Source: Porphyromonadaceae bacterium FC4 (GTDB lineage Bacteria > Bacteroidota > Bacteroidia > Bacteroidales > Porphyromonadaceae). Taken from it: a stretch of DNA of 64,000 nucleotides. The position numbers and the translations under genes are program-made. Below, one piece after another: positions 1,506 to 56,340 of this stretch (positions within the stretch are counted from its first letter, which is position 1; every line of letters starts with the position of its first letter). The notes beneath the pieces were generated by a model. It was not told the DNA's origin and searched no databases. It was given only the letters and a program-made list of their open reading frames with translations. The stretch covers positions 548,186 to 612,185 of the forward strand of contig LT635553.1 of NCBI GenBank assembly GCA_900120395.1, given 5' to 3'.

Positions 1506-1510
1506 GGTGT

Positions 1511-4944: not shown

Positions 4945-5285
4945 GGCGACCCCGTTAGGGGTCGAACAGTATAGCCCCGAGTCAGACGCACTGAGGAGCG
5001 TCTGACTCGGGGTAAATGATTCGCTCTTGCACCCCGACCCCGACACACGTCGGGGTCGCACCCTGTCATCTGATGGTACGACACCAACGTTCGTCGGAGT
5101 CGTTTTTTCGGAGAAGGACCGTATTCCCAGGGTCAGAGCTCCTTGGAGCTCTGACCCTGGGCTATTGATGTACGACCCCCTTGGGGTCGTTTGTTCCTCG
5201 CCCGGAGGTCGAGGTGCGCAGCACCGAAGACCCCGGGGAAATAACGGACCACTCCCATTAATCCTCGACCCCGCAGGGGTCGCCA
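4945..5285. repeat. Palindrome array 1 (type II order, with a type I module at the right)
   Basis: A run of imperfect palindromes in fixed order: GACCCC/GGGGTC (4948-4963), AGCCCCGAGTCAGACG/TCTGACTCGGGGT (4973-5013), CGACCCCGAC/GTCGGGGTCG (5035-5058), ACGAC..GTCGT (5078-5103, followed by TTTTTT), CCCAGGGTCAGAGCTCC/GGAGCTCTGACCCTGGG (5126-5161) and GACCCC/GGGGTC (about 5172-5190). A type I hairpin (GAGGTGC/GCACC, 5199-5239) and a last GACCCC palindrome follow. No plausible gene lies here. Some hairpins with T runs could terminate recG transcription. The same order recurs in 54229-54770. Confidence 0.85.
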
Positions 5286-9244: not shown

Positions 9245-9271
9245 AGTACTATTTTGTAGAGCTGTTGGTAT

Positions 9272-12886: not shown

Positions 12887-13151
12887 ACGACCCCGACATG
12901 CGTCGGGGTCGGGAATGAAATCCGGATCGGTTACCCCGGGTCAGAGCTCCGGAGGAGCGAATGACCCGGGGCTAGATTCTTCGACCCCCAACGGGGTCGT
13001 TTTGCTCATCGATGCATGCTGCGGGGGCTCTGACCCCCGACGAATGTCGGGGTCGAACAACACAGCCCAGGGTCAGAGCTCCGCAGGAGCGAATGACCCT
13101 GGGAATACGGTCCTTCTCACAAAAACGACTCCGACGAATGTTGGAGTCGTA
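12887..13151. repeat. Palindrome array 2 (type II modules, reversed)
   Basis: Between divergent genes lie CGACCCCGAC/GTCGGGGTCG (12888-12911), CCCCGGGTCAGAGCTCC.. (about 12934-12974), GACCCC/GGGGTC (about 12982-12998), GACCCCCGAC/GTCGGGGTC (about 13032-13055), CCCAGGGTCAGAGCTCC/..TGACCCTGGG (about 13065-13104) and ACGACTCC/GGAGTCGT (13125-13150). These are the hairpins of the array after recG read in the reverse direction. Because the neighbours are divergent, simple 3'-end termination does not explain this copy. No gene is supported. Confidence 0.85.
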
Positions 13152-13211
13152 CCACTAAACGGAGATAATCGGGTGAATGTCTATATCGCTGACAAACAGG
13201 TAGATATTGGT

Positions 13212-13310
13212 CGCAAAAACTTTCCTACTGGAAAGAGTTTGCTTCTATCCGTCAAATCGTTTGCTTTCCTACTGGAAACATTTCTTTTCTATCCGTCAAA
13301 TTTTTTTTGT
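13212..13310 (+). repeat. Element A, copy 3
   Basis: Plus-oriented tandem pair with TTTCC-TACT-GGAAA and CTATCCGTCAAA twice, ending in a T run and TTTTGTCCC. It stands between palindrome array 2 and the DUF4834 gene, upstream of a plus-strand promoter. Confidence 0.85.
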
Positions 13311-13388
13311 CCCGAACTGAGCGAAAAAAGTACGGGGCATATCGGTGCAATTGCCCGGTGGGGCTCACCTGATCTCACGGGAAAGTGC

Positions 13389-13396
13389 TATATTTG
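13389..13396 (+). promoter_or_regulatory. -7 promoter element for the DUF4834 gene
   Basis: TAtaTTTG 36 bases before the ATG. No convincing -33 box at 19-21 bases. Confidence 0.4.
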
Positions 13397-13431
13397 ACTT
13401 GGTTGTTTTGAAAAACCTTAGCGTAATACCT

Positions 13432-13692
13432 ATGGATTTGTTATTGATTCTTTTGATCGTTCTGCTGATGGTGGCACTGTACCGCCTGCTGCCGGTTTTT
13501 CGGGCGCTACGCCGAGTCTCTGCTATGAAGCATGAGGCGCAGCGCAGGTACCAAGAGCAGCAGGAGCACCGGAGAGCAACAGAACGGACAGAAAATCCAC
13601 CTCGGAAATCAGAGGACTTGATAAAAGGTGCGAACCTAGATCTGGAGGGCGGGGAGTATGTGGATTATGAAGAGGTCAAGGATTCGAACTGA
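13432..13692 (+). CDS. DUF4834-like small membrane protein
   Basis: An 86-residue protein with one N-terminal membrane segment (residues 3-20, very rich in Leu and Val), then a basic, Gln/Glu/Arg-rich cytoplasmic part and an acidic end (EGGEYVDYEEVKDSN). The pattern of one helix, a charged linker and the closing YVDYEEVK matches the Bacteroidetes family DUF4834, whose function is not known. The start is ATG 13432, where the membrane helix begins; a longer frame from 13345 would put an unrelated stretch derived from repeat-flanking DNA in front. It is followed after 135 bases by the ROK regulator with its own -7 element. Confidence 0.7.
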   Translation: MDLLLILLIVLLMVALYRLLPVFRALRRVSAMKHEAQRRYQEQQEHRRATERTENPPRKSEDLIKGANLDLEGGEYVDYEEVKDSN

Positions 13693-13772
13693 TAACTAAA
13701 TAGTAGCGGATCCGGGAGAGGGAGTTTCTGAAAAATATCAAGAAGTTCGTGCAAAAGTTAAAACAATTGGTT

Positions 13773-13780
13773 ACCTTTGA
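13773..13780 (+). promoter_or_regulatory. -7 promoter element for the ROK gene
   Basis: TAccTTTG ends 47 bases before the ATG at 13828. No clear -33 box. Confidence 0.45.
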
Positions 13781-13827
13781 GCTTCGGACACTTTTCTACC
13801 CTACACTCAAGCCTTTTTAGCGACATT

Positions 13828-15054
13828 ATGAAGATAGAGAAATTCAGGGACATGCTCGATACGAACACTAAGGCAGTGTTTTATAAGAAAAGAATCATCG
13901 AGCATGTCATCGACATTGGCCCGGAGACTTTACCCAATCTGGCAAAACACCTTGAGGTGAGCGTGCCCACTGTGAGCAAGATGGTTAGTGAGCTCGTGGA
14001 CACCGGGGTATTCAAAAGCTATGGAAAACTAGAGACCTCGGGCGGACGCCATCCTTTCCTCTACGGTCTGGATCCGGAGAATTGTTACTTCTTGGGTGTG
14101 GACTTTGAGACCAACAAGATGAACCTGATGCTCATGGACCTATGCGGAGAGCAGGTACGTGAGGAGATGGGGCGACCCTTCACGTTTGAGAACACCGAGG
14201 AGTGCCTGCAGGAGCTCTGCGATGTGGTGAATGAGTTTCTCGACCGCGAAGGACCCGATGATCGTGCCAAGACGGTATCGATCGGTATGAACATCTATGG
14301 CCGACTCAACCCCAATACCGGCTACAGCTATACCTACTTCAACTTTAGCGAAGTGCCGCTGGCTAAGGTCCTTTCATCAAAGATTGGGATCGAGACCTTC
14401 ATCGACAACGATTCGAGAGCTTGCGCTTTTGGCGAGTACATGACGCACTACAAGGAGAATGGCAGTAACATGCTCTTTGTGAACATGACCTGGGGACTGG
14501 GGCTCGGCATCATCGTCGATGGCAAGCCCTATACCGGGAAGTCGGGCTTTAGTGGGGAGTTTGGACACATCCATGCGTACGAAAACGAAGTCCTCTGCCA
14601 CTGCGGCAAGAAAGGCTGTCTGGAGACAGAGGCGAGCGGGAGGGCTTTCTATCGGAAGTTCATGGAGCGAGTGAAGTCCGGAGACAACTCCATCCTGCGC
14701 TCTGCTAAGAGCGACCTGCACAAGCCCCTGGATGAGATCACCCTCCTCGACCTCATCGAGGCAACCCGTCGAGAGGATATGCTCTGTATAGAGATCCTGG
14801 AGGAGGTGGGAGAGCACCTGGGGATGCATGTGGCGAGTCTGATCAATATATTCAACCCGAATGTGGTGGTAGTCGGTGGTGTGCTGGCTAATACCGGTGA
14901 CTACTTGATGCAGCCGATGCGGAGCGCCATCCGTAAGTACTCGCTCAATATGGTGAACCAGGACACTGCTCTCAGGCAGTCGATGCTGCTCCGCTATGCG
15001 GGTGTGATCGGTGCCTGCATGCTTGCACGTAAGAAGGCTGTCGAGCGGCTTTAG
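13828..15054 (+). CDS. ROK-family transcriptional regulator / sugar kinase-like protein
   Basis: A 408-residue NagC/Mlc-type protein: a winged helix-turn-helix at the N-terminus (about residues 15-70, ETLPNLAKHLEVSVPTVSKMVSELVDTG) followed by a ROK sugar-binding domain. In the ROK part GVDFETNKMNLMLMDL is the phosphate-loop-like start, FIDNDSRACAFGE carries the catalytic-type Asp, and GEFGHIHAYENEVLCHCGKKGCLETEASG has the zinc-binding His and Cys cluster typical of the family. It is thus expected to sense a sugar or amino sugar derivative and repress genes elsewhere; no uptake genes are adjacent. I start at 13828, since the longer reading begins inside the promoter. A strong hairpin follows. 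Confidence 0.88.
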   Translation: MKIEKFRDMLDTNTKAVFYKKRIIEHVIDIGPETLPNLAKHLEVSVPTVSKMVSELVDTGVFKSYGKLETSGGRHPFLYGLDPENCYFLGVDFETNKMNLMLMDLCGEQVREEMGRPFTFENTEECLQELCDVVNEFLDREGPDDRAKTVSIGMNIYGRLNPNTGYSYTYFNFSEVPLAKVLSSKIGIETFIDNDSRACAFGEYMTHYKENGSNMLFVNMTWGLGLGIIVDGKPYTGKSGFSGEFGHIHAYENEVLCHCGKKGCLETEASGRAFYRKFMERVKSGDNSILRSAKSDLHKPLDEITLLDLIEATRREDMLCIEILEEVGEHLGMHVASLINIFNPNVVVVGGVLANTGDYLMQPMRSAIRKYSLNMVNQDTALRQSMLLRYAGVIGACMLARKKAVERL

Positions 15055-15107
15055 AGCTGTGATGTAAACGATCTATCCCCCCTTCGGGGTGGATGCACCA
15101 ATAAGAA

Positions 15108-15141
15108 GACAGCCCCTTAGCACGAATGCTAAGGGGCTGTC
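15108..15141. terminator. Bidirectional terminator between the ROK gene and the tRNA genes
   Basis: GACAGCCCCTTAGC and GCTAAGGGGCTGTC form a perfect 14-bp stem with a 6-base loop, followed by TCTTTG on the plus side. It lies between convergent units and can serve both. A smaller hairpin (CCCC-CTTC-GGGG) lies near 15077-15092. Confidence 0.8.
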
Positions 15142-15154
15142 TCTTTGTGCTTGG

Positions 15155-15229
15155 TGGACCCTGTAGGATTCGAACCTACGACCCTCTGTTTGTAAGACAG
15201 ACGCTCTGAACCAACTGAGCTAAGGATCC
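15155..15229 (-). tRNA. tRNA-Val (anticodon UAC), copy 1
   Basis: The minus strand folds into a complete cloverleaf: acceptor GGATCCT/AGGGTCC, D stem GCTC/GAGC, anticodon stem TCTGT/ACAGA with loop CTTACAA (anticodon TAC, valine codons), and T arm GTAGG-TTCGAAT-CCTAC. Discriminator A. In this copy a CCA follows the discriminator in the genome (15152-15154). It is the downstream member of a tandem pair separated by 23 bases. Confidence 0.93.
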
Positions 15230-15252
15230 AAGAAGTATTTGATCGTATTGTG

Positions 15253-15327
15253 TGGACCCTGTAGGATTCGAACCTACGACCCTCTGTTTGTAAGACAGAC
15301 GCTCTGAACCAACTGAGCTAAGGATCC
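15253..15327 (-). tRNA. tRNA-Val (anticodon UAC), copy 2
   Basis: Identical cloverleaf to the neighbouring copy, with the same anticodon TAC and discriminator A, but the bases after it are CAC, so CCA is not encoded. It is the promoter-proximal copy of the pair, with the promoter at 15387-15417. Confidence 0.93.
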
Positions 15328-15386
15328 AAAAAGTATAGGTGCGTCTCTGCGTGAGTCGTTGATCTCTCTTTTTCGCTGACGCTTGG

Positions 15387-15417
15387 CAAAGTTACAAAAG
15401 TTTTTTGACTTGCCAAA
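15387..15417 (-). promoter_or_regulatory. Promoter of the tRNA-Val pair
   Basis: On the minus strand TTTG (15414-15417) and TAacTTTG (15387-15394) are separated by exactly 19 bases, a full match to the Bacteroidetes consensus. The tRNA gene begins 60 bases downstream. Confidence 0.8.
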
Positions 15418-15535
15418 TGTTTTGCTAGATCAATTTAGCGCCAAGGGCTATTTACGAGTGCTTTCTCTCTACTTTTGTCATTCTTGTGGTGGCTGTCGTG
15501 AGGCAGAGGGGCGGTCTCTGGCAGCCTCCGGGGGA

Positions 15536-16198
15536 CTACCATGCGATGGGCGCTATGCCGTGTGAGGCGAGGTAGTAGTTGGTCTTGGAGAAGTGCTGGC
15601 AGCCAAAGAACCCCCTGTAAGCCGATAGAGGGGACGGGTGTACGCTCCGTAGGATATAGTGCTTTTCGGGGTCGATGTACATCTCTTTGCGCCGGGCATC
15701 ACTCCCCCAGAGTAGGAATACCAAGTGCTCCCGCTGCTGTGAGAGGACTTGGATGACGTGGTCGGTAAAGCGCTCCCACCCCCATCCGGCGTGGCTCTTT
15801 GGAGTGTGTGCCTGTACGGTGAGGGTGGCGTTGAGGAGGAGCACTCCTTGCTGAGCCCAGTGGGTGAGATTGCCGCTCATCGGGATGGGCTTGCCAACAT
15901 CGGTGTTGAGCTCTTTGTAGATGTTTTGGAGAGAGGGAGGGATGGGGCAGCCATCCGGGACCGAGAAGCTGAGCCCCATGGCCTGACCGTAGTTGTGGTA
16001 CGGGTCTTGGCCAAGGATCACCACCTTGACCCGGTCGAGGGGAGTGAGATTGAAGGCATTGAAGATCAGCGATCCGGGTGGAAAGACGGTTGCGGTGGAG
16101 TATGCTTGGCGGACCCGGTCGGTCAGTTCCCTGAAGTAGGGCTGCTCAAACTCGTCCGCCAAGGCTTCTTTCCAAGAAGGGTGTATCTGTACGTCCAT
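15536..16198 (-). CDS. ung: Uracil-DNA glycosylase
   Basis: Family 1 UDG, which excises uracil from DNA. The water-activating loop VILGQDPYH places Asp65 and His68 (positions 63-68), the uracil-recognition segment includes LLLNATLTV, and the DNA-intercalation loop is HPSPLSAYRGFFG. The length (220) is that of bacterial Ung. It is the last gene of a minus-strand operon, starting one base after the M49 peptidase stop, and so is presumably cotranscribed with murF-alr. A short unassigned stretch (15331-15535) separates it from the tRNA genes and contains their promoter. Confidence 0.97.
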   Translation of the reverse strand: MDVQIHPSWKEALADEFEQPYFRELTDRVRQAYSTATVFPPGSLIFNAFNLTPLDRVKVVILGQDPYHNYGQAMGLSFSVPDGCPIPPSLQNIYKELNTDVGKPIPMSGNLTHWAQQGVLLLNATLTVQAHTPKSHAGWGWERFTDHVIQVLSQQREHLVFLLWGSDARRKEMYIDPEKHYILRSVHPSPLSAYRGFFGCQHFSKTNYYLASHGIAPIAW

Positions 16199-16199
16199 T

Positions 16200-18830
16200 T
16201 TATTGGTCTAGTTCGTCAAGAAGGTTCATGAGGTCTGCGCCCACGAGGTAGGGATAGGTGTCGATTACCTGACTGTCGATCAGCTCTCGGGCAATCTGTC
16301 GGAGGGAGCTGCGCGAGCCGGGCTGACGCTCCGCAAGGGTGGACAGTGACCGGTGGATGTAGGTGGCAAGGTCCAGCCCGGCTGTCTCCAGATCATAAAC
16401 AACGTGAAGTTGCAACTCGTCCAAGAGAGCAGGGGAGACCTTTTGCTCGAGAGCAAGGCGGTTGAGGATGATGTAGGGGAGTAGTCGGGTCATGGCGGTG
16501 GTAGGCGCTTCGCTCCAGAGGGTTAGTGCCAGCGGTTCGCCCTGTCCGGAGGGAGTGACCAACTCAAGGACAAAGTGCTCGGCGACCTCCAGCTCGGTGA
16601 TCTCCGAGCTCCAGGCTTGCAACAACTCTGGCGTGATGGCGTCGTGCGGCAGGATGAGCAGGGCCAGGAGCTTCATCTCTCGGACATCTTTGTGCCACAT
16701 GAGGGAGGCAAGCTCTGCATCGTGCGGCAGGGTCTTGCTGAGCTCTCGCAGGTGGAGAAGGTTGACGCCAAAGTTGATACCGTAGTCCACTCCCTTGTCG
16801 CGCATGCTCTTGGAGGAGATACCGTCCATGTGTCTTCGCAGCTGGTTGCGAAGGCTCTTGAGGGTAGAGTGCCATCGCCCATCGGGTGTCTCCTGCGGTG
16901 CGCGGTAGGTAGAGATGGGAGGAGTCAGGGAGCGATACTGCTCGCTGTATCTGAGGTTTTGCTCAAAGTAGCCCTCGTCGTATGTGATGGTATGTCCACC
17001 GTCAGTAGTAGGCATGATGACCGGGTTCACAAAGCCGACGTAGGGGGCTATCTCTATATCCGCCATACGCTCAAGCACCTCGGCGTGTAGCTTGGGGTCG
17101 ACGTCGGTAGCATAGGTGCGTATCAGCTCCTGGGCAGAGGCATAGTCTCCGGTGCTCTTGATCCGCTGAATCTCCGCCAGCTGTACGCCAAAGATCCTGT
17201 GTAGCTCGTCGTAGTCGTTGATGATAACGTAGTGCTTCCCCTCTATGGTACGCAGCTCGGCAGCCTTGGTCTCCTGGCAAAGCTCCAGCGCCCACCAGGC
17301 GATGAGTGCCCGGTTTTGCATGTGTGCCTGACGTAGGATGAGCTCGTCCCCTAGCTTGGTGAGCTGCGTGAGGATGCCGCGGGTAAGGTACTGGTCGTAG
17401 AGAGCCTTGTACGCCTCCTTGTCCGGCAGGATTAGATCCTCTACCATCTGCGGATGAGCGATGAAGTAAAGAGCGTTTAGGTCGGCACGAGCTTCCTCAA
17501 TGGCTGAGGCATGCTCGCGGAGTGCGTTGCCCGATACTCCGTCCAAAAGTTTGCCCGAGCCATGACCAAGCCCCTCATGTAGGTCTGTGTGTACGGTGTC
17601 CGTGATCGTACCGTAGCGCATGATCCTCTGCCGAACCTCCTCACCGTAGTAGAAGCGCGGCACCATCTGCCCCAGACGTGCCTCGGAGACTGCCTCGGAG
17701 ATATTGGTGAGGGTCACCGACTTGGAGCCGACCTCTGCACGTATCTTTTCGTCATTGGGGAGGTTGATTCCGAGTGGAGAGGCAGGGTAAGAGTCACCGG
17801 CGAGCATCACTACTTGGATCGCTCTATTGCTCATAGCCCCTACGGTATGCCGCTTGAACGCTTCGTCGATGGGCGACTCACGCTCCATCTGCTCTGCGAG
17901 GTTGATCACCTTCCGGGCACGCTCGGTGCCCGCCCGGTCTACCAGCTCCAGGATACCCTCCCACGATCCTTTCAGCCCGAGAGGATCGGTGTACGTCTCT
18001 ATGAACCCATTGATCATGTCCACCTCTTCCAGCAGCGTTACCCATATCTTACTGTACTCTGCAAAGTGTTCCGGTTCGCCGCTCTCGTAGTATTCGAGCA
18101 GCTTTCGGAGCACGGTACGCGCCTCCTCGGAGGGGGCAAGGTCGATCGCTGCCGTAAGGTGTACCGCTATTTGCTCCAATGCCGGGCCGTAGAGCCCTCC
18201 CGTACATGCCACCTGCTCCGTCAGCGTCCCGTCCTCGGATCGGACCAACCTCGTATTGAGCCCCGGTGCGATGCTGTACTTTCCCTGCAGCTTGGCGTAG
18301 TAGGCTTCGGCTTCAGCCGTGGTGATCGATGGATCGTAAAAGTGGACCGAGGAGCGCTCCAGCAGCGTCTGCTTATCCCCCGTCGCTCTTCTGCGAAACG
18401 GATCCACCCCGGGGTCAAAGATCAGTGCCTCCAGCTCATCTGCCGAAGTCCCGGCATGGCTTAGATAGGTTGGCACGTCGTACGGCAGCTCTGCGAGTGC
18501 AGTGCGAAACCATTCGCGCGAAAACTTTGGCACCAACTTCTCCTCCGTATAGCTGTGGTGGATCCCACTATGCATCCACACCGCCCCAAGGTATTCCTCC
18601 AGAGCCGGAGTCCTATTGGCCTCCCGGCTCCATAGTGCCTCCAGTACTTCTCGCACCACCGGTCCCAGGCGGTGGTGCTGGAGGTAAATGATGTCCCTTC
18701 CCCAGAGACAAGCCTCGGAAAGTTGGTATAGATACGCCTGAGTGTTGGCGGATAGCTGCTCCCATCCTTTTACACGGTAGCGGAGGATGTCAAAAGAGTT
18801 GCTGTGGTAGACAATATTATTAGTGCTCAT
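16200..18830 (-). CDS. Dipeptidyl-peptidase III-like zinc peptidase (M49)
   Basis: An 876-residue protein of the M49 family, metallopeptidases that remove dipeptides from the N-terminus. The defining HEXXGH motif is present as HEGLGH (near residue 418) and the third zinc ligand region as EEARAD about 25 residues later, the normal order for the family. No signal peptide is visible, so a cytosolic role in peptide breakdown is likely, fitting an amino acid-fermenting organism (inference). Members in Bacteroidales are often misnamed dihydrofolate reductase in databases. The gene stands between murF-alr (18-base gap) and ung (1-base gap) in one operon. The C-terminal 150 residues are helical and carry no motif I know. 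Confidence 0.9.
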   Translation of the reverse strand: MSTNNIVYHSNSFDILRYRVKGWEQLSANTQAYLYQLSEACLWGRDIIYLQHHRLGPVVREVLEALWSREANRTPALEEYLGAVWMHSGIHHSYTEEKLVPKFSREWFRTALAELPYDVPTYLSHAGTSADELEALIFDPGVDPFRRRATGDKQTLLERSSVHFYDPSITTAEAEAYYAKLQGKYSIAPGLNTRLVRSEDGTLTEQVACTGGLYGPALEQIAVHLTAAIDLAPSEEARTVLRKLLEYYESGEPEHFAEYSKIWVTLLEEVDMINGFIETYTDPLGLKGSWEGILELVDRAGTERARKVINLAEQMERESPIDEAFKRHTVGAMSNRAIQVVMLAGDSYPASPLGINLPNDEKIRAEVGSKSVTLTNISEAVSEARLGQMVPRFYYGEEVRQRIMRYGTITDTVHTDLHEGLGHGSGKLLDGVSGNALREHASAIEEARADLNALYFIAHPQMVEDLILPDKEAYKALYDQYLTRGILTQLTKLGDELILRQAHMQNRALIAWWALELCQETKAAELRTIEGKHYVIINDYDELHRIFGVQLAEIQRIKSTGDYASAQELIRTYATDVDPKLHAEVLERMADIEIAPYVGFVNPVIMPTTDGGHTITYDEGYFEQNLRYSEQYRSLTPPISTYRAPQETPDGRWHSTLKSLRNQLRRHMDGISSKSMRDKGVDYGINFGVNLLHLRELSKTLPHDAELASLMWHKDVREMKLLALLILPHDAITPELLQAWSSEITELEVAEHFVLELVTPSGQGEPLALTLWSEAPTTAMTRLLPYIILNRLALEQKVSPALLDELQLHVVYDLETAGLDLATYIHRSLSTLAERQPGSRSSLRQIARELIDSQVIDTYPYLVGADLMNLLDELDQ

Positions 18831-18848
18831 ACGGTATAGTGTCTCTAT

Positions 18849-21326
18849 TTACTCTGAAAAGTAATGACGGCTGATGCGCATGGACAGTCTCGCCAGCACC
18901 TCGTAGTCGATGGTGCCTGAGGCGTCGGCTATCCGTGCGATGGGCAGTGTGTCGTCAAAGATGGTGATGGTCGATCCTTCGGTCGCCAGTGGAGCATCGG
19001 TCAGGTCGAGTATCGTGGTATCCATACACATATTTCCCAGTGTGGGGACGAGCGTCCCGTCCTCGGTCCTAAACCGTACCGCACCGTTTCCCAGTGCACG
19101 CGGCAGTCCGTCTGCATAGCCTATCGGGATGACCCCCACCCGTGAGGGGCGCGTCAAGACCCCTTTTCGACCGTAGCCGACCGTTGCTCCTGCCGGCAGC
19201 TCTCTGGTCTGTAGGAGCAGGGTACGCAGCGAAGCAACCGGCTCCACCCCCATGGGATGACTCTCGAGGGGCGACAGTCCGTACAGTCCCGCTCCCAGTC
19301 GGATCATATCGCTCTCGTAGTCTGCAAACCGTGTGGATCCGGCAGTATTGAGCGCATGCTTCAGGAAAGGGTAGGTCAGACCGGCGTGCATCTCCTCACT
19401 GATCTTGTCCATCAGGTCGAGCTGTGCCCTCGTGTACGCATCCTCCGCAGGATCATCTGCCACAGAGAGGTGAGTAAAGATACTGGCGACATGTACTGCT
19501 GAGGTGCCCCGGAGCACCTTGAGTACCTGCTTCACCTCCCGCAGCTCAAATCCCAGACGGTGCATGCCGGTGTCCCACTTGAGGTGTACGGGGTAGTCGT
19601 GCTCACCGAGCAGTTCCGCCGTGCGTATGAAGTCCTTCAGGATGCTCAGAGAGTAGAGGTTGGGCTCGAGGTGGTACCGGATCATCTGCCGGTAGGCACT
19701 CGGCTCCGGGTTCATGATCATGATGGGCACCTTGATCCCGTGCTCCCTCAGCTCCTTCCCTTCATCCGAAACAGCTACGGCGAGGTAGTCCACCTTTTGT
19801 GCCTCCAGCACCTTGGCAATCTCGTAGCTTCCCACTCCGTACCCAAAGGCCTTGATCATACAGGTCACCTTCCTCCCCTTCGGGATGTGCGCACGGTAGA
19901 GGTTGAGGTTCGACGCCAGGCGGCTGAGGTTCACATCCAGGATGGTCTGGTGCACCCGTCGAATCAGAGCATTGGTGATGCGCTCAAAGTGAGCCATTCG
20001 CGCCCCTTTCAGCAGCACGATGTGTCCCCCCAGTTGCTCTGCCGGCTTTCCTGCCAAAAACTCCTCCACGCTTGCGAAGTAAGGTACCCCCTGCCCCAGG
20101 ACGCTGAGGTAGGGGAGCAGCCCCTCACCAATGGCGATGATGTTTTGCAGGTCATGTACCTCCAGCAGTTCACCGATGCGTCGGTAGAGACCGGCGGGGT
20201 CGTTGCTGCTCTCTCGAAACTCCGATAGGATTACACTCTTGGGGCGGTGGTCGATGTTCCGCCGCTCCATATAGCTGAGGGCTATCCGCAGAGAGTCGTA
20301 GTCGGCATTGTAGGTGTCGTTGATCAGCAGCATATCCTCTACGCCCTCCAGTACTTCCAGCCGCATACCGATGGGGTAGAGCTTCTCAAATACCCCTTGG
20401 TCCTCCGCCACCTCCGGAGCCACCTCGCTCAGGAGGACCAGTGCCAAAAAGAGATCCTGCAGGCTCCCCTCGTCCAGTAGCGGGACACGGTAGCTGCGCT
20501 GCTGCCCCCGCAGGGTGCAGGTGATCGTCGTGTGGCTCGGTTCGTGCGTGAGCCGCTCCACGAATAGCTCCGCCGTCGGATCTTCCTTGCTCCAGCCGAG
20601 GACCTTGCAGCGGAGACCTGCCCGCTTGATACCGGACCGGATCAGCTCATTATCCTTATCGATGATCAGGAGGTCACTTTCCCGAAAGAGCTTGAGCTTC
20701 TCGTCCAGCTTTTGCTCCAGCGACTCAAAGTGCTCCTGATGCGCCTCGCCTATATGAGTGAGTACCCCTATATTGGGCTTGATGATCGGCTCGAGCAGAT
20801 CCATCCCCCCCGGTGCCGATATCCCCGCCTCTATGAGCGCCAAGTCGAGCTCCGGCGTCAGCCCCCAGATGGAGAGTGGCACACCGATGGACGAATTGTA
20901 GCTCCTGGGTGAGCGACCCACCGCACGGTGCGGGCGCAGTAGCTGAAACAATAGCTCCTTGAACGTCGTCTTGCCGTTGCTCCCCGTTATCCCCACGACC
21001 GGGTACTTGAGCGTGCTTCTGTGGTACGTGGCGAGCGACTGAAGGGCTGCCAGCGTGTCCGGAACGGTCAGAAATGTTGCTCCCGGGTAGTCTCCCGGCG
21101 ACAGATCCTCGCGACTCACGACAAAGTTCCTCACCCCCTGTTCATAGAGATCGCCTATGTACCGGTGGCCGTCATCCTTGTCCGTCGTTAGTGCAAAAAA
21201 GAGGACCCCCTTCGGCTCTGCCAAGCCTCGGCTGTCGATGAGTGGGGTGCTGATGGTGTCGGTGCCTTTTCCGGTCATCCGGGCACCTACGATCTCCGCA
21301 ATCTGAGAGATGGGGTATTGAGTCAT
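18849..21326 (-). CDS. murF-alr: Bifunctional MurF ligase - alanine racemase fusion
   Basis: An 825-residue fusion typical of Bacteroidetes. The MurF half (1 to about 455) adds D-Ala-D-Ala to UDP-MurNAc-tripeptide and carries the ATP loop GITGSNGKTT (112-121) and LALIEAGISAPGGMDLLEPI. The second half is a PLP-dependent alanine racemase with the lysine in MIKAFGYGVGSYEIA (about residue 488) and a GYGRKG segment that fits the catalytic tyrosine. The usual racemase motif is MVKANAYGHG, so AFGYGVG is divergent while keeping the Lys. One protein thus makes D-alanine and uses the dipeptide made from it. It overlaps the GSCFA gene by four bases upstream and leads the M49 gene by 18 bases. Confidence 0.94.
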   Translation of the reverse strand: MTQYPISQIAEIVGARMTGKGTDTISTPLIDSRGLAEPKGVLFFALTTDKDDGHRYIGDLYEQGVRNFVVSREDLSPGDYPGATFLTVPDTLAALQSLATYHRSTLKYPVVGITGSNGKTTFKELLFQLLRPHRAVGRSPRSYNSSIGVPLSIWGLTPELDLALIEAGISAPGGMDLLEPIIKPNIGVLTHIGEAHQEHFESLEQKLDEKLKLFRESDLLIIDKDNELIRSGIKRAGLRCKVLGWSKEDPTAELFVERLTHEPSHTTITCTLRGQQRSYRVPLLDEGSLQDLFLALVLLSEVAPEVAEDQGVFEKLYPIGMRLEVLEGVEDMLLINDTYNADYDSLRIALSYMERRNIDHRPKSVILSEFRESSNDPAGLYRRIGELLEVHDLQNIIAIGEGLLPYLSVLGQGVPYFASVEEFLAGKPAEQLGGHIVLLKGARMAHFERITNALIRRVHQTILDVNLSRLASNLNLYRAHIPKGRKVTCMIKAFGYGVGSYEIAKVLEAQKVDYLAVAVSDEGKELREHGIKVPIMIMNPEPSAYRQMIRYHLEPNLYSLSILKDFIRTAELLGEHDYPVHLKWDTGMHRLGFELREVKQVLKVLRGTSAVHVASIFTHLSVADDPAEDAYTRAQLDLMDKISEEMHAGLTYPFLKHALNTAGSTRFADYESDMIRLGAGLYGLSPLESHPMGVEPVASLRTLLLQTRELPAGATVGYGRKGVLTRPSRVGVIPIGYADGLPRALGNGAVRFRTEDGTLVPTLGNMCMDTTILDLTDAPLATEGSTITIFDDTLPIARIADASGTIDYEVLARLSMRISRHYFSE

Positions 21327-26051: not shown

Positions 26052-26515
26052 CAGCACCCCGCAGGGGTGCCTCCTTCATAGACCGGGTGTCGAGGAGGGG
26101 CGAATGCCCCGACGAAGACCCCGGGAAAGGAAGACCCTGCTCAAACAAAACGACCCCGCTAGGGGTCGCCAAACACCTCAACCCTGTGGCGACCCCTGGC
26201 GGGGTCGGGAAGGAGGGACAAGGCTTGGTTACCCGGGGTCTTCGGTGCTTCGCACCTCGACCACCGGGCTAAGAACAAACGACCCCTGGCGGGGTCGGCA
26301 TACCCGTCCTATTCGCCCATTTAACTATCCGCCTCTTTTTGGATAGACTGTTGGTGGGCAGCACCCCGCCAGGGGTGCCTCCTTCATAGACCGGGTGTCG
26401 AGGAGAGGCGAATGCCCCGACGATGACCCCGGGAATAGAGATAGCCAAAAAAATAGAACGACCCCGTCAGGGGTCGCCAAACGATCGACCCTTTGTTCGA
26501 CCCCTATCGGGATGT
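26052..26515. repeat. Palindrome array 3 (type I modules)
   Basis: GCACCCC/GGGGTGC palindromes (26053 and about 26363), two GGGGCG-aat-GCCCC type I' modules (about 26082-26126 and 26391-26435), a type I module GGTGC-ttc-GCACC in the reverse orientation (26231-26270), and several GACCCC/GGGGTC palindromes. Two similar halves (about 26040-26160 and 26340-26480) share most bases, indicating duplication. Small frames through it give proline- and arginine-rich peptides and are not genes. Confidence 0.85.
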
Positions 26516-35920: not shown

Positions 35921-37588
35921 TTACTTCTTCTTCGGCACCTTCAGGTGGTCGTAGTTGCCCTCGTGAATGGTGCGGTAGTACTCCTCGCTGTAGCCGGGCT
36001 GGTCAGGAAATGCGCTCAAGCCGTGCTCCGTCTTAAACGTCCCATGCTCCTCCTTCTTCACATTGCCATCGATGTACTTCACCAGGAGGTACTCCCCGAG
36101 CTTCTTCCAGCGTGCGGTGGCACCGTTGGCGCACGACTCCGAGTAGCGGGTGAGGTAGGCGCGTGCCGCCTCTACCCCTTGCTCCTTTTCGATACGCAGT
36201 GCCTCCTGCTCGATCACCGGCTGGTCGGCAAAGTACTTGTTCTCGATCTCCTGCTGTACGGGGCGGATGTCCCGGATCATGTAGTCGTACTTGTTGTACG
36301 CCATGTTGGCAACCCAGTTGTGCATCCAGAAGGCAGAGGTCCACGAAAACTCCGTCAGGCTGCCATTCTCGGTACTAAATGCCTCCGGCACCCGCGTGAT
36401 ACAGCCGTACATGGGGCTGAATACCGTGGTATTCGCATCGTCCACACCAAACCAGAGCACCGGTCCCACCAGGTCCGGCAGCTGCGAGCGGAGCTGCGCC
36501 ACCAGTACGAATCCTGTCTGCTGAGTAGCGATCGCCCGCTCATTGACATACTCCTGACCGTCGACCTCAAATCCCATCGGTCTCCAGCGGTAGGGCACGC
36601 AGTAGGGACCTGCGCCCACATCCTTTGTCATATCCATCGGTGTCCCCTCATAGTGGTCGCGCATCATCGCCTGGACATCCTGTACGGATAGCTTCTCGTC
36701 GGGGATCACATAGAGCGGCATCGGCTCCGCATCCGGCTCATGCCCCATCACCAGAGGGAGGTAGCGGTCCATGCCCTTCTTGTGTCGGTTGAAAAAAGAC
36801 CAGACCCTCGCCTCGCAGCCTCGCAGTCCGCCAAAGTCGTACGGGTTGTATACCTGCTGAAAGCTAAAGTCCTTGTCGCTGCCGCTGTAGAGCCCTTTCC
36901 GGCGGGCAAAGCTGATCACGTCAGGAGAGTAGAGGCAGTTCGCCGGGTCGTCAAAGTCGATCTGCTGGATCCGTGCCTGGTTGGCATGTGCAGAGATCGC
37001 GTTGTCGGGGATGCGCTTAGCCACCCATACCGCACCGGTCTCGCCCTTGCCTTTGCCGATCATCTCCAGCACCCACACCTCGTTTTTATCCGCGATGGTG
37101 AAGGACTCGCCCGAACTCTTATACCCGTACTTCTCCACCAGTCCTGTGAGGACGTCCAGAGCTTCACGGGCAGAGGCGGCACGCTGCAGCGTGATGTAGA
37201 TCAGGCTGCCGTAGTCCATCAGTCCCTCGGTCTCTTGGCACTCGGCGATGCCGCCCCAAGTACTCTCGGTGATGGCGACCTGCTTCTCATTGAGGTTGCC
37301 GACGACGTTGTACGTACTGGGGACCTGGGCTATCTGGGTGGTAAAGATACCGGTATCCCACTCCACCACATCCATCATGTAGCCCGGCATCCAGGTAGCC
37401 CGGGGCCAGAAGTACAGTTCGCCGTAGAGGGTGTGGGAGTCGGCGGCATAGCTGATGATGACGCTGCCGTCAGTGGAGGCATCCTTGCCCACGATCAGGT
37501 CGGTGCATGCCAAAGCGTGCGGTGTCCCCAGTGCCAAAGCTACCAGTGTCACCACCGCAGTCAGTAGTTGGGTTGGTCGTTTGTTCAT
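35921..37588 (-). CDS. Secreted C69-family dipeptidase
   Basis: A 555-residue Ntn-hydrolase of peptidase family C69 (PepD-like). The signal peptide (MNKRPTQLLTAVVTLVALALGTPHALA) ends right before Cys28-Thr-Asp, so its removal would expose the N-terminal nucleophile cysteine, as the family requires. ITESTWGG, LMDYGSLIYITLQRA and GLRGCEARVWSFFNRHKKG fit C69 proteins. Use of dipeptides and tripeptides produced outside the cell is the likely purpose. I start at ATG 37588 at the beginning of the signal peptide. A promoter lies at 37629-37660 and a terminator at 35865-35902, so it is a single-gene unit. Confidence 0.92.
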   Translation of the reverse strand: MNKRPTQLLTAVVTLVALALGTPHALACTDLIVGKDASTDGSVIISYAADSHTLYGELYFWPRATWMPGYMMDVVEWDTGIFTTQIAQVPSTYNVVGNLNEKQVAITESTWGGIAECQETEGLMDYGSLIYITLQRAASAREALDVLTGLVEKYGYKSSGESFTIADKNEVWVLEMIGKGKGETGAVWVAKRIPDNAISAHANQARIQQIDFDDPANCLYSPDVISFARRKGLYSGSDKDFSFQQVYNPYDFGGLRGCEARVWSFFNRHKKGMDRYLPLVMGHEPDAEPMPLYVIPDEKLSVQDVQAMMRDHYEGTPMDMTKDVGAGPYCVPYRWRPMGFEVDGQEYVNERAIATQQTGFVLVAQLRSQLPDLVGPVLWFGVDDANTTVFSPMYGCITRVPEAFSTENGSLTEFSWTSAFWMHNWVANMAYNKYDYMIRDIRPVQQEIENKYFADQPVIEQEALRIEKEQGVEAARAYLTRYSESCANGATARWKKLGEYLLVKYIDGNVKKEEHGTFKTEHGLSAFPDQPGYSEEYYRTIHEGNYDHLKVPKKK

Positions 37589-37628
37589 TATCGATTGTAT
37601 TCTTGCTTGTTTTAATTCACTCACTCCC

Positions 37629-37660
37629 CAAAGTTACCGACATCACCCCGAAAAAACAAC
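37629..37660 (-). promoter_or_regulatory. Promoter of the C69 dipeptidase gene
   Basis: On the minus strand GTTG (37657-37660) and TAacTTTG (37629-37636) are 20 bases apart; the leader is about 35 bases. Confidence 0.6.
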
Positions 37661-37723
37661 CCATTCCTTCCCAAACTCCCACACATTATATATATAATAG
37701 TGATCATATATAATAGTGATCCC

Positions 37724-38818
37724 GAGGTATGCCGACCCCGTAGGGGTCGTTTTTTCATAGCCCGGCGGTCGAGGTGCGGAGCACCGAAGACCCCGGGGAA
37801 ACAGGACCGAAGCCCCGTCCCCCGACCCCGCCAGGGGTCGCCAACCGCTGCGACCCTATGGCGACCCCTGGCGGGGTCGTGTATTGACGGGGGCTATCTC
37901 TTCTCCCGGGGTCATCGTCGGGGCGTTCGCCCCTCCTCGACCACCGGGCTATGAAGGAGGCACCCCTACGGGGTGCTGCCGACCCACTTTCTATCCAACC
38001 CCCGTCCGTTCCATTGGCTAAGCAGGAGGCACCCCTACGGGGTGCTGCCGATCCGATGCGTCTTCCACACCTTATATATTATATAGTGATCCCGAGGTCT
38101 GTCGACCCCGTAGGGGTCGTTTCTTCATAGCCCGGCGGTCGAGGTGCGAAGCACCGAAGACCCCGGGGGAACAGGACCGAAGCCCCGTCCCTCCGACCCC
38201 GCAGGGGTCGCCAACCGCTGCGACCCTATGGCGACCCCTAGCGGGGTCGTGTATTGACGGGGGCTATCTCTATTCCCGGGGTCATCGTCGGGGCGTTCGC
38301 CCCTCCTCGACCACCGGGCTAAGCAGGAGGCACCCCTGCGGGGTGCTGCCACCCAACCGTTCTCCCCAATGAGGAGGCGGGAACAAGGACGATAGCGGGG
38401 AGGGCCTGCCGACCCCGCTAGGGGTCGTTTTTTCGTAGCCCGGTGGTCGAGGTGCGGAGCACCGAAGACCCCGGGGAAATAGGACCGAAGCCCCGTCCCC
38501 CCGACCCCGCCAGGGGTCGCCAACCGCTTCGACCCTATGGCGACCCCTGGCGGGGTCGTGTATTGACGGGGGCTATCTCTATTCCCGGGGTCATCGTCGG
38601 GGCGTTCGCCCCTCCTCGACCACCGGGCTATGAAGGAGGCACCCCTACGGGGTGCTGCCGATCCGATGCGTCTTCTACACCTTATACATAGTGATCCCGA
38701 GGTCTGCCGACCCCGTAGGGGTCGTTTTTTCATAGCCCGGCGGTCGAGGTGCGGAGCACCGAAGACCCCGGGGAAAGGGGCTTCCCGTCTCCCCGACCCC
38801 GCCAGGGGTCGCACCACT
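37724..38818. repeat. Palindrome array 4, tandem type I units of about 300-370 bp
   Basis: A tandem array whose units begin with GATCCCGAGGT or a variant, then GACCCC/GGGGTC plus TTTTTT, a type I hairpin (GGTGC-gga-GCACC), a 20-base inverted repeat CGACCCCGCCAGGGGTCGCC with its complement, a type I' hairpin (GGGGCG-ttc-GCCCC), and GCACCCC/GGGGTGC. The first GACCCC of the units stands at 37734, 38104, 38411 and 38709, giving periods of 370, 307 and 298 bases; the fourth unit is cut short. An open frame of 230 codons on the minus strand runs through it but is a by-product of the repeat. Located between divergent genes (C69 and fimbrial locus). Confidence 0.9.
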
Positions 38819-38822
38819 AGGG

Positions 38823-38920
38823 GGCAAAAAGTTTGCTACTGGAAACCGTTCTCTACTATCCGTCAAATCGTTTTCTTTCCTACTGGAAACATTTCGCTAC
38901 TATCCGTCAAATTTTTTGAC
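38823..38920 (+). repeat. Element A, copy 6
   Basis: Plus-oriented pair; the first hairpin is altered to TTTGC-TACT-GGAAA, the second is intact, and CTATCCGTCAAA occurs twice, followed by TTTTTTGACA. It closes palindrome array 4 on the right. A further AAAATTTGACGGGCGG near 38936-38951 may be a fragment in the opposite direction. Confidence 0.85.
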
Positions 38921-38951
38921 ACGCTGCGGGACGAAAAATTTGACGGGCGGT

Positions 38952-39387
38952 ATTGCCCTGTCGCCCGGGAGTAGCCGGTGAATGTCTGGATCGCTCGGTG
39001 GTTGTGCGGTTTCTTTACAAAAGGACAACCACGTCTTCGACCGTCGTGAAGCAGAGTTGTACATTGGGTCTCCATTTTATAGGCTCTGACCTGCTCGGAT
39101 TGTAGACCGGGTCGGGCATCCGGTACCTTTGTTGATACGTACGATCCACTACTGTGTCCGCCGGGGTAGGGACGTAATACTTTGGATTTCTGGTTGTTGC
39201 TTCTCTTTTCCGACTGTCGGATTGCATTTTTTTGCCATGCTCCACTTTTTTCTTTTTTCTTTTAACTCCGTCAAGAAAAAGCCCCAACCCCTTTTGTATT
39301 ATGGACTATTTGTGCTTTTTTGATGTGATTTTATTTGCATATTTTGTCTACTATTTTATTAAATGGTCGTGATTTTTAGGGATTCGT
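38952..39387. other. Stretch without a supported gene before the fimbrial promoter
   Basis: About 430 bases. A 90-codon frame on the minus strand (39015-39287) has a basic, low-complexity start (KRKKKKVEHGKK) and no signal, domain or promoter that I can support. The last 150 bases are A+T rich and lead into the promoter at 39388. Confidence 0.5.
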
Positions 39388-39418
39388 TTTGTGGTTTGTT
39401 GAATAATTCGTATTTTTG
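39388..39418 (+). promoter_or_regulatory. Promoter of the fimbrial locus
   Basis: TTTG (39388-39391) and TAttTTTG (39411-39418) with exactly 19 bases between them, embedded in A+T-rich DNA. The leader to the DUF3575 ATG would be about 170 bases. This is among the best promoter matches in the window. Confidence 0.8.
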
Positions 39419-39419
39419 C

Positions 39420-39463
39420 CTTGTGAACCAGAAGGATCACAAGTGTCTTTTGGACTTGTTTTT
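39420..39463 (+). promoter_or_regulatory. Overlapping dyads at the start of the fimbrial transcript
   Basis: CTTGTG (39420-39425) can pair with CACAAG (39438-39443), with inner CC/GG pairs. ACAAGT (39439-39444) can instead pair with ACTTGT (39454-39459), which is followed by TTTT. The two pairings exclude each other. Since transcription probably begins near 39424, the first dyad may act as a DNA operator and the second as a weak early terminator. Confidence 0.45.
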
Positions 39464-39591
39464 AGAGGCTCATTTGCGGCACGTATAAACTTAAACGTCT
39501 AAAATACTAGGGGATGTGGAACGAGATCAAGGTACGGAAAGGTGAGCACACTATTTGCACGATGATAAAATTCTGACGATCGAAGAATAAT

Positions 39592-40176
39592 ATGAAAAGT
39601 AAACTATTTTGGCTCCTCTTATGCATTTGCGGTCTGTTCTCTGTCAGTCAGACTGCAGAGGCTCAAAAGGTAGCGCTCAAGACCAACTTCGCCCACTGGG
39701 CGGTACTCGGCTCCCCCAATGCCGGAGTGGAGTTTGCCCTAGGGCAAAAAATGACCCTGGATGTAGATGCAGGATTCAACCTGTGGAAGTACAAAGAACC
39801 CCTGGAGCTGCGCCACTGGATCGCTCAGCCTGAGCTCCGCTACTGGTTTTGTGAGTCTTTCAACGGCACCTTCGTCGGTCTTCACGGCCACTACGGACAG
39901 TACAACGTCGGAGGAATCAACCTGCCGATAGGACGGCTCAAGGAGCTCAAGGACAACCGCTACGAAGGGGACTTCTACGGTGCCGGACTCAGTCTGGGTC
40001 ACCAGTTTGTGCTCTCTCCGCTGTTCAACCTCGAGCTCTCCCTCGGAGGGGGGTGGGCACGCACCGACTACCGCAAGTACGAGTGCATGACCTGTGGCTC
40101 ACAGATCGGTGACGGTGTCTACGACTACTTCGGCCTGACGCGGGCTACGCTCTCACTGGTACTATTCCTCAAGTAA
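39592..40176 (+). CDS. DUF3575 outer-membrane-type protein of the fimbrial locus
   Basis: A 194-residue exported protein: signal peptide MKSKLFWLLLCICGLFSVSQTAEA, then strands with alternating aromatic residues (LKTNFAHWAVLGSPNAGVEFAL, WIAQPELRYWFCESFNGTFVGLHGHYG, LSLGHQFVLSPLFNLELSLGGGWA) and the end LSLVLFLK, which fit a small outer-membrane barrel. It belongs to DUF3575, a family that stands next to DUF3868 and FimA/Mfa genes in Bacteroidales. Involvement in anchoring or biogenesis of the fimbria is inferred from position. It is the first gene behind the promoter at 39388 and is 11 bases from the next gene. Confidence 0.82.
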   Translation: MKSKLFWLLLCICGLFSVSQTAEAQKVALKTNFAHWAVLGSPNAGVEFALGQKMTLDVDAGFNLWKYKEPLELRHWIAQPELRYWFCESFNGTFVGLHGHYGQYNVGGINLPIGRLKELKDNRYEGDFYGAGLSLGHQFVLSPLFNLELSLGGGWARTDYRKYECMTCGSQIGDGVYDYFGLTRATLSLVLFLK

Positions 40177-53849: not shown

Positions 53850-55266
53850 GCCGACCCCGCCAGGGGTCGTTTATTCCTAGCAAACCCGGGGACTGCCGAC
53901 CCTGCCAGGGGTCGTTTCTTCATAGCCCGGGTGTCGAGGCGCGTAGCGCCGAAGACCCCGGGTAAACGAAGCTTCCACCCACCCCCCGACCCCGCTAGGG
54001 GTCGCCAAACGATCGACCCTCTGGCGACCCCTAGCGGGGTCGTTTTATTGACGAGGGCTATCTCTATTCCCGGGGTCATCGTCGGGGCGTTCGCCCCTCC
54101 TCGACCGCCGGGCTATGAAAGAGGCACCCCTGTCGGGGTGCTACCGCCCCACCGCTTCGCCCTCTTCTTTTTCCCAAACCGGCACCCTTTCGGGGTCGCC
54201 ATTCCCTATCCGCTCTTTTCCCTAACCCTCGACTACGAAAGAACGACCCCGTAGGGGTCGAAGAATCTAGCCCCGGGTCAGAGCTCCGAAGGAGCATCTG
54301 ACCCGGGGTAAATGATCCGGGTTTTATCCCCGACCCTGACGCACGTCGGGATCGCACCCCGTCATCTGATGGTACGACTCCAACGTTCGTCGGAGTCGTG
54401 TTCCTTGTCGACCTGCTTTCCCAGGGTCATTCGCTCCTATCGTCGCTCTGACCCTGGGCTATTGATGTACGACCCCGACGAATGTCGGGGTCAATACTCT
54501 GTCCGTCCTTTTTTCGAATACTCGACTGCGAAAGAACGACCCCGCCAGGGGTCGAAGAATATAGCTCCGGGTCAGAGCTCCGAAGGAGCATCTGACCCGG
54601 GGTAACCGATCCGGGTTTTATCCCCGACCCCGACGCACGTCGGGGTCGCACCCCGTCATCTGAAGGTACGACTCCAACGTCCGTCGGAGTCGTGTCCCTC
54701 TTCGACCTGCTTTCCCAGGGTCATTCGCTCCTATCGTCGCTCTGACCCTGGGCTATTGATGTACGACCCCGCCAGGGGTCGCCGGGAGGGAGGGATCGCC
54801 GTTTCCCCGGGGTCTTCGGTGCTTCGCACCTCGACCGCGGGCTATGAAAGAACGACCCCTTCGGGGTCGCCAGTCCCGCCCCGCTATCGTCCTTGTTCCC
54901 GCCTCCTCATTGGGTAGAACCTCTGGATCGGCAGCACCCCGTAGGGGTGCCTCCTTCCTAGCCCGGTGGTCGAGGAGGGGCGAACGCCCCGACGATGACC
55001 CCGGGAAAAGAGATAGCCTCAATAAATAAAACGACCCTGCCAGGGGTCGCCATAGGGTCGATCGTTTGGCGACCCCTGGCGGGGTCGGCGGGAGGGAGGA
55101 GGACGCCCTTTTCCCGGGGTCTTCGGTGCTTCGCACCTCGACCGCCGGGCTATGAATGAACGACCCCTATCGGGGTCGGCAGTCCCGTCCCGCTATCGTC
55201 CTTATTCCCGCCTCCTCATTGGGTAGAACCTCTGGATCGCCAGTACCCCTGTCGGGGTGCTGCCGA
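53850..55266. repeat. Palindrome array 5, types I and II with an internal tandem duplication
   Basis: The largest array. It holds a type I hairpin with the changed pair GGCGC-gta-GCGCC (53924-53962), type I' hairpins (54069-54113 and 54961-55005), reversed type I hairpins (54805-54843 and 55113-55151), and two type II runs in the same order as after recG (from about 54231 and from about 54523, offset of about 292 bases, nearly identical over some 240 bases). GACCCC/GGGGTC and GCACCCC/GGGGTGC palindromes fill the rest. No gene is supported; several frames of 70-150 codons across it are products of the repeat. Confidence 0.9.
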
Positions 55267-56121: not shown

Positions 56122-56340
56122 TATGGCGACCCCTTCGGGGTCGGCGGTGGGGAAGAGGGGTCGCCGTTTCCCCGGGGTCTTCGGTGCTTCGCACCTCGAC
56201 CGCCGGGCTATGAAAGAACGACCCCTGCCGGGGTCGTGATTTGGTTTGGGGACAATCTTATCCCAGGGGTCATCGTCGGGGCGTCCGCCCCTCCTCGACC
56301 GCGGGCTATGAAGAAACGACCCCTAACGGGGTCGGCAGGA
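56122..56340. repeat. Palindrome array 6 (short, type I reversed)
   Basis: GACCCC/GGGGTC near 56129, a reversed type I hairpin GGTGC-ttc-GCACC (56170-56208), GACCCC/GGGGTC (about 56219-56235), a type I' hairpin GGGGCG-tcc-GCCCC (56261-56306) and a last GACCCC palindrome. This array has no element A copy beside it. No gene. Confidence 0.85.

Follow-up and report, generated by a model that had tools for sequence, protein, structure and literature searches.

The 64,000-nucleotide stretch of Porphyromonadaceae bacterium FC4 analysed here (contig LT635553.1, positions 548,186 to 612,185; called the window below) hosts six intergenic arrays of palindromes, of which the array at 37724-38818 is the focus of this work. 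We think it probable that these arrays are populations of non-autonomous single-strand transposons moved by a TnpA transposase of Y1 subclass 1.2, and that they resemble REPINs (inverted doublets of repetitive extragenic palindromes, REPs), bacterial interspersed mosaic elements (BIMEs) and miniature inverted-repeat transposable elements (MITEs). The repeats are dispersed through the genome, keep a fixed doublet geometry with a TAG foot and covarying stems, and enclose a transposase gene in one copy, while mirrored hairpin-TAG ends recur at related genes elsewhere.

An earlier reading made from the letters alone (the sequence-only reading) had proposed that the six regions share a few palindromic modules, and had offered a mobilised palindrome family, structured RNAs, or nucleoid or topology sites as possible roles. 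The modules are present in all six regions. Out of 78 starts of perfect hairpins with 7-bp arms (loop 3-6) in the window, 52 lie within the arrays (3,801 bases), against 0-6 in 20 Markov shuffles of the joined arrays. The mobilised family is the best supported of the three options, through the dispersal, the fixed inverted doublets and the enclosed gene; the movement itself is what we infer from these.

Hairpin units and the transposase gene inside one of them

The FC4 genome (G000; 2.12 Mb in four contigs) matches the focal DNA at 107 blastn places, and DNA-level comparison detected the focal unit in 4 of 41 genomes, which belong to a single genus. Four sorts of hairpin, 36-44 nt long and named alpha, alpha', beta and gamma, make up the arrays. 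Covariance models place at least 144 of these REPs in the genome, 77 of the alpha class and 67 of the beta/gamma class, in 50 clusters; 43 clusters contain more than one hairpin. These counts are lower bounds, with 150 of 1,658 and of 1,927 first-look candidates scored, and they lean toward AG-footed copies, on which the models (R1 and R2) were built with the inner helix drawn one base off.

The foot of the hairpins was counted in own-genome stretches with substitution-only patterns that left it out and were oriented by stem asymmetry, giving 110 REPs, or 127 when a longer alpha' loop was allowed. The unpaired 5' foot is TAG in 103 of the 127 and CAG in 8. A TAG-type foot seldom occurs 3' of the hairpin, with 5 of 110 among the commonest words listed. 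The base before the 5' TAG varies, with GTAG in 17 of 110, i.e. NTAG as compared with the REP criterion GT[AG]G. A looser pattern, TAGCCC..GGG, gave mostly chance matches over 12 genomes, about as frequent as those of a reversed control pattern, and was dropped.

The hairpins pair up with a constant spacing: there are 20 inverted alpha doublets with a gap of 104-112 nt and 16 inverted beta/gamma doublets with a gap of 112-117 nt, and a single mixed pair has a gap of 137. In 102 of the 127 cases the 3-nt foot is preceded, at a distance of 7-8 nt, by an outer hairpin; inner hairpins come next. In a whole unit, the outer hairpin is separated by 7-8 nt from TAG and the REP hairpin; two inner hairpins with a spacer between them follow, and then come the inverted REP, CTA and a second outer hairpin, a layout which, judged by its sequence, is REPIN/BIME-like. 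What the sequence-only reading had called types I and I' are REPs alpha and alpha'; its type II run of six hairpins is the beta/gamma unit (outer, gamma, inner, inner, beta, outer), and its GACCCC/GGGGTC and GCACCCC/GGGGTGC modules are the outer and inner hairpins. Its tandem units of about 300-370 bases were also recovered: the focal array consists of three full REPIN units and one partial unit, with starts spaced by 370, 308-309 and 297. Unit 2 matches unit 1 at 92% ungapped over 282 nt and at 95% with gaps, and unit 3 matches it at 73% ungapped and 97% with gaps.

The stems covary across species, as the sequence-only reading had suggested checking. In 33 alpha REPs from G000 and two relatives, G005 and G006, changes on both sides are seen at 5 pairs, in 38 cells, and the score of 0.253 exceeds the 0.082 of shuffles (0 of 500 attain it) and the maximum of 0.068 for slid controls. 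Within G000 alone the signal is thin: the alpha REPs give 3 cells changed on both sides and a score that 13 of 500 shuffles reach, and the one covarying pair of the beta/gamma REPs is the beta-versus-gamma difference itself. It is the cross-species alignment that makes the case for covariation.

A single PF01797 (Y1 transposase) match was found in G000, at C4:787659-788000, 175 kb outside the window. This gene, tnpA, encodes a 142-aa protein and lies inside one beta/gamma doublet. Gene-less doublets align with its left flank over the outer hairpin, gamma and the first inner hairpin and with its right flank over the second inner hairpin and beta, and both arms of the unit align to 11 gene-less beta/gamma doublets. 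Since this full-length relative carries TnpA between the same beta/gamma ends, the small units are best explained as MITE-like forms of it, from which they would have descended. Ends shared with gene-less copies are a trait of MITEs and of palindrome-associated transposable elements (PATEs); in G000 such ends were seen for the beta/gamma doublets, and the same TnpA may serve the alpha units too.

TnpA carries the motifs DHVH, WQ and YIENQQKHH, the last of which fits Y---Q--HH. It passes the IS200 model NF033573 (76.9 bits, cut-off 55) and fails the model NF047646 for REP-associated tyrosine transposases (RAYTs; 35.2 bits, cut-off 80), on which the E. coli RayT control scores 179 bits, with the IS200 model unlisted for that protein. 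The class-2 RAYT motif Y---NP, which E. coli RayT has as YIYINP, is replaced by YIENQ. Among solved structures, the chains closest to TnpA in sequence are the transposase chains 2fyx and 2xm3 and the ISHp608 transposase 2a6m, and no RAYT-named chain appears among such relatives up to E 10. No open reading frame (ORF) of tnpB size was found beside tnpA within 6100-8200 of its stretch, L032. By the tests run, and as far as sequence can assign it, TnpA is of IS200 type, subclass 1.2, and no RAYT. The search for a RAYT-like gene elsewhere in the genome, advised by the sequence-only reading, thus led to a Y1 gene of another class.

We envisage the following mechanism. TnpA would bind end hairpins that have folded in single-stranded DNA, a step that probably takes place at replication forks, and would nick near the TAG by means of its HUH motif and Tyr114. 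Units would be excised or copied in cis and in trans, and tandem arrays would then expand by duplication of whole units. The TAG may be a guide at the REP foot, like the GTAG of RAYT systems, or it may be a cleavage site about 10 bases past the outer hairpin, a placement that resembles the right end of IS608. For the transposase family, the chemistry of the HUH motif and the tyrosine is well documented (PMC6006769, PMC8266576). That TnpA cuts here, what the TAG does and the order of these events are what we infer for FC4.

Mirrored hairpin-TAG ends at distant subclass 1.2 genes

A collection of genomes from 84,980 species was scanned with the Porphyromonadaceae alignment, and the best 80 of at least 566 relatives were used. 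The motif Y---Q--HH is found in 77 and WQ in all 80. Flank similarity was computed for 73 loci, as seven lacked 300-bp flanks or held runs of N, and TAG offsets were counted at 74. Inverted similarity between the two 300-bp flanks (score at least 40) occurs at 36 of 73 loci and in 1 of 582 control pairs; the corresponding figures for any flank similarity are 43 of 73 and 12 of 582. Two loci, L146 and L113, show long direct similarities around tnpA (scores 366 and 307), unlike the commoner inverted ends.

The 26 loci that we read suggest a shared plan: an outer hairpin and, about 10 bases on, TAG, in many cases with a REP hairpin next to it, then spacer, inner hairpin and gene, and after the gene the mirror image. 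The middle hairpin or the TAG is absent at some of these, and a strict scan finds a two-sided TAG at 13 of the 26. A TAG lies 8-10 nt past a hairpin for 110 of 532 flank hairpins and for 59 of 2,062 control hairpins from the same loci. The offsets peak sharply at 9 (56 of 532) and 10 (46 of 532), with 0-9 at each other offset from 0 to 19, while the controls are flat with 9-25 per offset. Counted per locus at offsets 9-10, the signature stands on both sides of the gene at 31 of 74 loci and on one side at 20, as compared with 0 and 14 of 272 control window pairs. It points toward the gene in 40 cases on the left and 42 on the right, and away from it in 12 and 16. The motif had first been read from part of the loci later counted, and the support therefore comes from the shape of the offset distribution and from the controls, not from a fresh sample. 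The 7-8 nt of FC4 were measured from a full 7-bp stem and equal 9-10 nt when the stem is counted as 5 bp.

For 13 of 14 chosen distant genomes, the flank units of the tnpA gene served as queries against the genome itself, with at most 29 candidates scored in each. They gave 13, 12, 3, 58, 5, 5, 46, 7, 3, 5, 31, 4 and 4 matches; control segments of the same loci gave 1, 3, 1, 1, 1, 1, 8, 7, 9, 1, 1, 1 and 1. The extra control matches stem from two segments only, which may be conserved coding domains. Flank units are dispersed in five of the 13 genomes (12-58 matches), most widely in [Flexibacter] sp. ATCC 35103 (58), Planctomycetes bacterium Pan216 (46) and a Flavobacterium metagenome-assembled genome (31), some of the rows being cross-matches among similar Flavobacterium segments.

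These results lead us to lean, on balance, toward a broader view: that subclass 1.2 TnpAs form a REP/REPIN-type system of their own in several phyla (Bacteroidota, Planctomycetota, Verrucomicrobiota, Ignavibacteria and Cloacimonadota by record titles), apart from IS200/IS605 and RAYT systems, with mirrored ends of the form hairpin, 9/10 nt, TAG, and that this system is the source of part of the dispersed hairpin repeats, including the present arrays. REPs, REPINs, PATEs and TIRtrons are kinds already known; the enzyme class, the layout with the gene inside the doublet and the cross-phylum end signature are new. We found no description of REPs for subclass 1.2 in the open-access literature, judged mostly at listing level.

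A relationship with IS200-like transposons is assumed for RAYTs and their REPs, but the intermediate is unclear. Here an IS200-type enzyme with REPIN-like populations is seated in one of their units, and its sharp end signature is directly testable with oligonucleotides. If the broader view is true, the published class property 'REP: no' would be corrected, a dispersed hairpin-repeat family of Bacteroidota and Planctomycetota would gain an origin, and annotation would gain a single cross-phylum motif.

A tree of the TnpAs was built from every second of the 80 loci (40 in all, less one with an internal stop). It was not used as proof of class membership: its outgroup branches are very long and two references from outside subclass 1.2 fall inside the set.

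Known systems, relatives and other explanations

Useful comparisons come from a paper on REPINs of Pseudomonas fluorescens SBW25, reportedly by Bertels and Rainey, from one on TIRtrons that is said to be by Di Nocera, and from a 2018 survey of Y1 transposases whose first author is reportedly Quentin. The SBW25 REPINs, which belong to RAYTs, are likewise inverted doublets of fixed spacing with compensatory changes, near-identical tandem units and clusters beside the transposase gene (PMC3116915), and their clusters parallel the whole-unit tandem amplification of the focal array (PMC3116915). They differ in their enzyme and in a strict GTAG foot, whereas the present units have NTAG, add outer and inner hairpins and hold the gene inside a doublet. 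TIRtrons are Y1 genes flanked by terminal inverted repeats (TIRs), some of which are self-complementary and some dispersed as dimers or clusters (PMC3733652); their transposases, the TIRYTs, keep RAYT-distinguishing motifs according to the authors, and their listed hosts and TIR motif (GGGGWSAS) differ from ours (PMC3733652). The PATEs of Haloquadratum are gene-less IS605-type derivatives that keep only palindromic ends and have no inverted terminal repeats, whereas the ends here are mirrored (PMC3119063).

The survey describes subclass 1.2 by DH[IV]H, WQ, Y---Q--HH, a median of 148 aa, low copy number and Bacteroidetes among the hosts (PMC6006769), a description that the motifs, the 142 aa and the single copy of TnpA fit. 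It also gives 'REP: no' and, generally, no typical terminal IS200 structures (PMC6006769), whereas we see dispersed REPs, and hairpin-TAG ends on at least one side at 51 of 74 loci. With IS200/IS605 elements TnpA shares the transposase family and hairpins near the ends; it differs in having one gene copy in place of several near-identical ones and in inverted ends, with no tnpB-size ORF adjacent. The ends of IS608 lie on one strand.

Among other Porphyromonadaceae, TAG-footed inverted REPs of other sequences enclose the Y1 genes G005:C86, G006:C54 and G002:C6. The Y1 gene G006:C72 has an alpha unit on either side, and the G013 gene and both G014 genes have TAG-footed REPs on the right side only. 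Short tandem-like repeats of the GGATCCCGCATTCATCGCCCTATACC type were seen around G005:C86, between REP units (L071, about 4620-4850 and 5530-5660). The transposase of G002, a genome of the same genus, is identical to that of Porphyromonas somerae DSM 23386. One common neighbourhood is recognisable in G006 C8 and in G000 C3 near 270 kb, with REPs in both.

In 38 Porphyromonadaceae genomes the repeats and the gene occur together in 6, the gene only in 1, the repeats only in 5 and neither in 26, and the Fisher p of 0.001 is optimistic, the query coming partly from TnpA flanks and the genomes being related; the co-occurrence is supportive, short of decisive. Several observations weigh against the transposon reading. 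The five REP-positive genomes with no Y1 gene detected include G021, 99% complete in two contigs, which indicates that orphan repeats exist. The others are G010 and G004, which are 53% and 90% complete and whose matches are weak (E about 1e-4), and G051 and G053, assemblies of 250-310 contigs. G046 has a Y1 gene with different palindromes on both sides and none of these repeats, and G005:C67 has a left-hand hairpin only, with no clean TAG foot. Further afield, 23 of the 74 subclass 1.2 loci show the strict signature on neither side, and seven of the 13 distant genomes give 3-5 matches, little past the two flanks. Within FC4, feet-outward pairs less than 260 bp apart are no commoner than feet-inward ones (37 each, with 20 in tandem), although only the outward pairs have a constant gap (inward gaps run from 38 to 243). 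Finally, a search of window positions 1-19999 against seven same-genus genomes saw no empty site; the flanks were not syntenic, the genes flanking array 1 lying apart in these relatives and one flank of array 2 being unmatched. As an observation on the repeats themselves, G021, G051 and G053 carry repeats of the G013/G014 type and may hold orphan REPs, or have a transposase that was lost or missed.

What else could explain the arrays? The odds of the alternatives overlap because their side roles are compatible with one another. Nothing observed hinted at a CRISPR-, retron- or integrase-type system, though no search was aimed at these. It is unlikely that TnpA merely landed in an unrelated palindromic family that spreads by another route. 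The five repeat-only genomes fit such a landing, and so do the alpha units, for which G000 has no gene-bearing copy, a point that also counts against the transposon reading; yet the gene and its mirrored hairpins recur with different REP sequences in other Porphyromonadaceae, and the signature is two-sided at 31 of the 74 distant loci.

We rate as quite improbable an ordinary RAYT/REP system, with a class-2 enzyme and canonical GTAG REPs. Inverted doublets, a TAG foot and a REP-flanked single-copy gene do match REPINs and REPtrons (PMC3116915), but the missing Y---NP motif and the model scores of TnpA and of its control disagree, and no second PF01797 match was found in the genome.

Very doubtful, in our opinion, is a structured RNA or transcription control (terminators, mRNA stabilisers or attenuators) spread by recombination. 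Covarying stems would suit RNA too, and the region 37300-39600 has 7 terminator-like sites as compared with 3.1 +- 1.5 in shuffles; four of the 7, each on the + strand, are T-tailed outer hairpins in the focal array. However, arrays 2, 3 and 4 lie between divergent genes, and such a function needs neither mirrored TAG-footed ends, nor a fixed doublet gap, nor an inner transposase gene. The sequence-only reading held that simple terminators do not explain all arrays, and this stands even with the four terminator-like hairpins. Nucleoid or topology sites selected for chromosome structure (gyrase, IHF or similar) are highly improbable as the main explanation, for although REPs are reported to bind IHF, DNA polymerase I and gyrase (PMC6006769), these repeats are patchy among the 38 relatives and differ in sequence between species; such a function could be a secondary role. 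Side roles of either kind leave the gene within the element, the unpaired TAG foot and the mirrored ends unexplained.

Composition and setting of the six arrays

The features of the window are collected in the table. Arrays 1-6 hold 8, 4, 6, 15, 15 and 4 starts of 7-bp-arm hairpins. The covariance models find 25 REP hairpins in the window, 3, 2, 3, 7, 9 and 1 per array, every one within the six intervals given by the sequence-only reading. The arms in the focal array mostly measure 7 bp, and for that reason a scan for 8-bp arms detected no hairpin there. At the gathering threshold Rfam matches only two tRNAs in the window and has no family that covers the arrays. Of the gene settings that had been described, the convergent and divergent ones hold, with array 1 between convergent recG and purL and arrays 2, 3 and 4 between divergent genes (Pfam, NCBIfam).

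Arrays, units and hairpins of the window
Feature	Position	Strand	Basis
Focal alpha REPIN unit 1: outer hairpin, 8 nt, TAG, REP alpha, inner hairpins, inverted REP alpha', CTA, outer hairpin	37733..37976	.	
Focal alpha REPIN unit 2	38103..38346	.	
Focal alpha REPIN unit 3	38410..38655	.	
Focal partial unit 4: outer hairpin, REP alpha, one inner hairpin	38708..38812	.	
REP alpha, foot ATAG	37756..37801	+	covariance model R1
REP alpha', foot ATAG	37901..37953	-	covariance model R1
REP alpha	38126..38171	+	covariance model
REP alpha'	38271..38323	-	covariance model
REP alpha	38434..38479	+	covariance model
REP alpha'	38580..38632	-	covariance model
REP alpha	38731..38776	+	covariance model
Outer hairpin of unit 1, then T6, terminator-like	37733..37749	+	
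Further terminator-like outer hairpins of the focal array	38103-38119, 38410-38427, 38708-38724	+	
Lone extra outer-type hairpin GCACCCC/GGGGTGC between units 1 and 2	38029..38045	.	sequence
Array 1: beta/gamma doublet and REP alpha (3 REPs)	4970..5241	.	covariance models
Array 2: gamma-like REP (orientation ambiguous, stem and foot in conflict) and REP beta (2 REPs)	12930..13107	.	
Array 3: alpha-class doublet and one more (3 REPs)	26077..26437	.	covariance models
Array 5: alpha doublet, two beta/gamma doublets, alpha singlet, alpha doublet (9 REPs)	53921..55154	.	
Array 6: single REP alpha	56167..56212	-	covariance model

A minus-strand ORF of 230 aa spans the focal array at 38125-38817 and is probably a by-product of the repeats and no gene. 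A second dispersed repeat (TATCCGTnAAA with CTACTGGAAA) adjoins REP arrays, at 38828-38946 of the window and near 6440-6540 of L030. Its TATCCGTnAAA motif has 96 sites in own-genome stretches, 62 of them less than 800 bp from a REP, a share biased by stretches picked around REPs.

Beside tnpA, L032:4045-6012 encodes a fused protein with fimbrillin-like Mfa_like_1 and DNA/RNA non-specific endonuclease domains; its GTG-started frame overlaps REPs, and the true start is probably later. The host genome, of Porphyromonas type, carries an Mfa1 fimbria gene. The window also holds a tandem pair of tRNA-Val (tac) genes on the minus strand, at 15152-15229 and 15252-15327.
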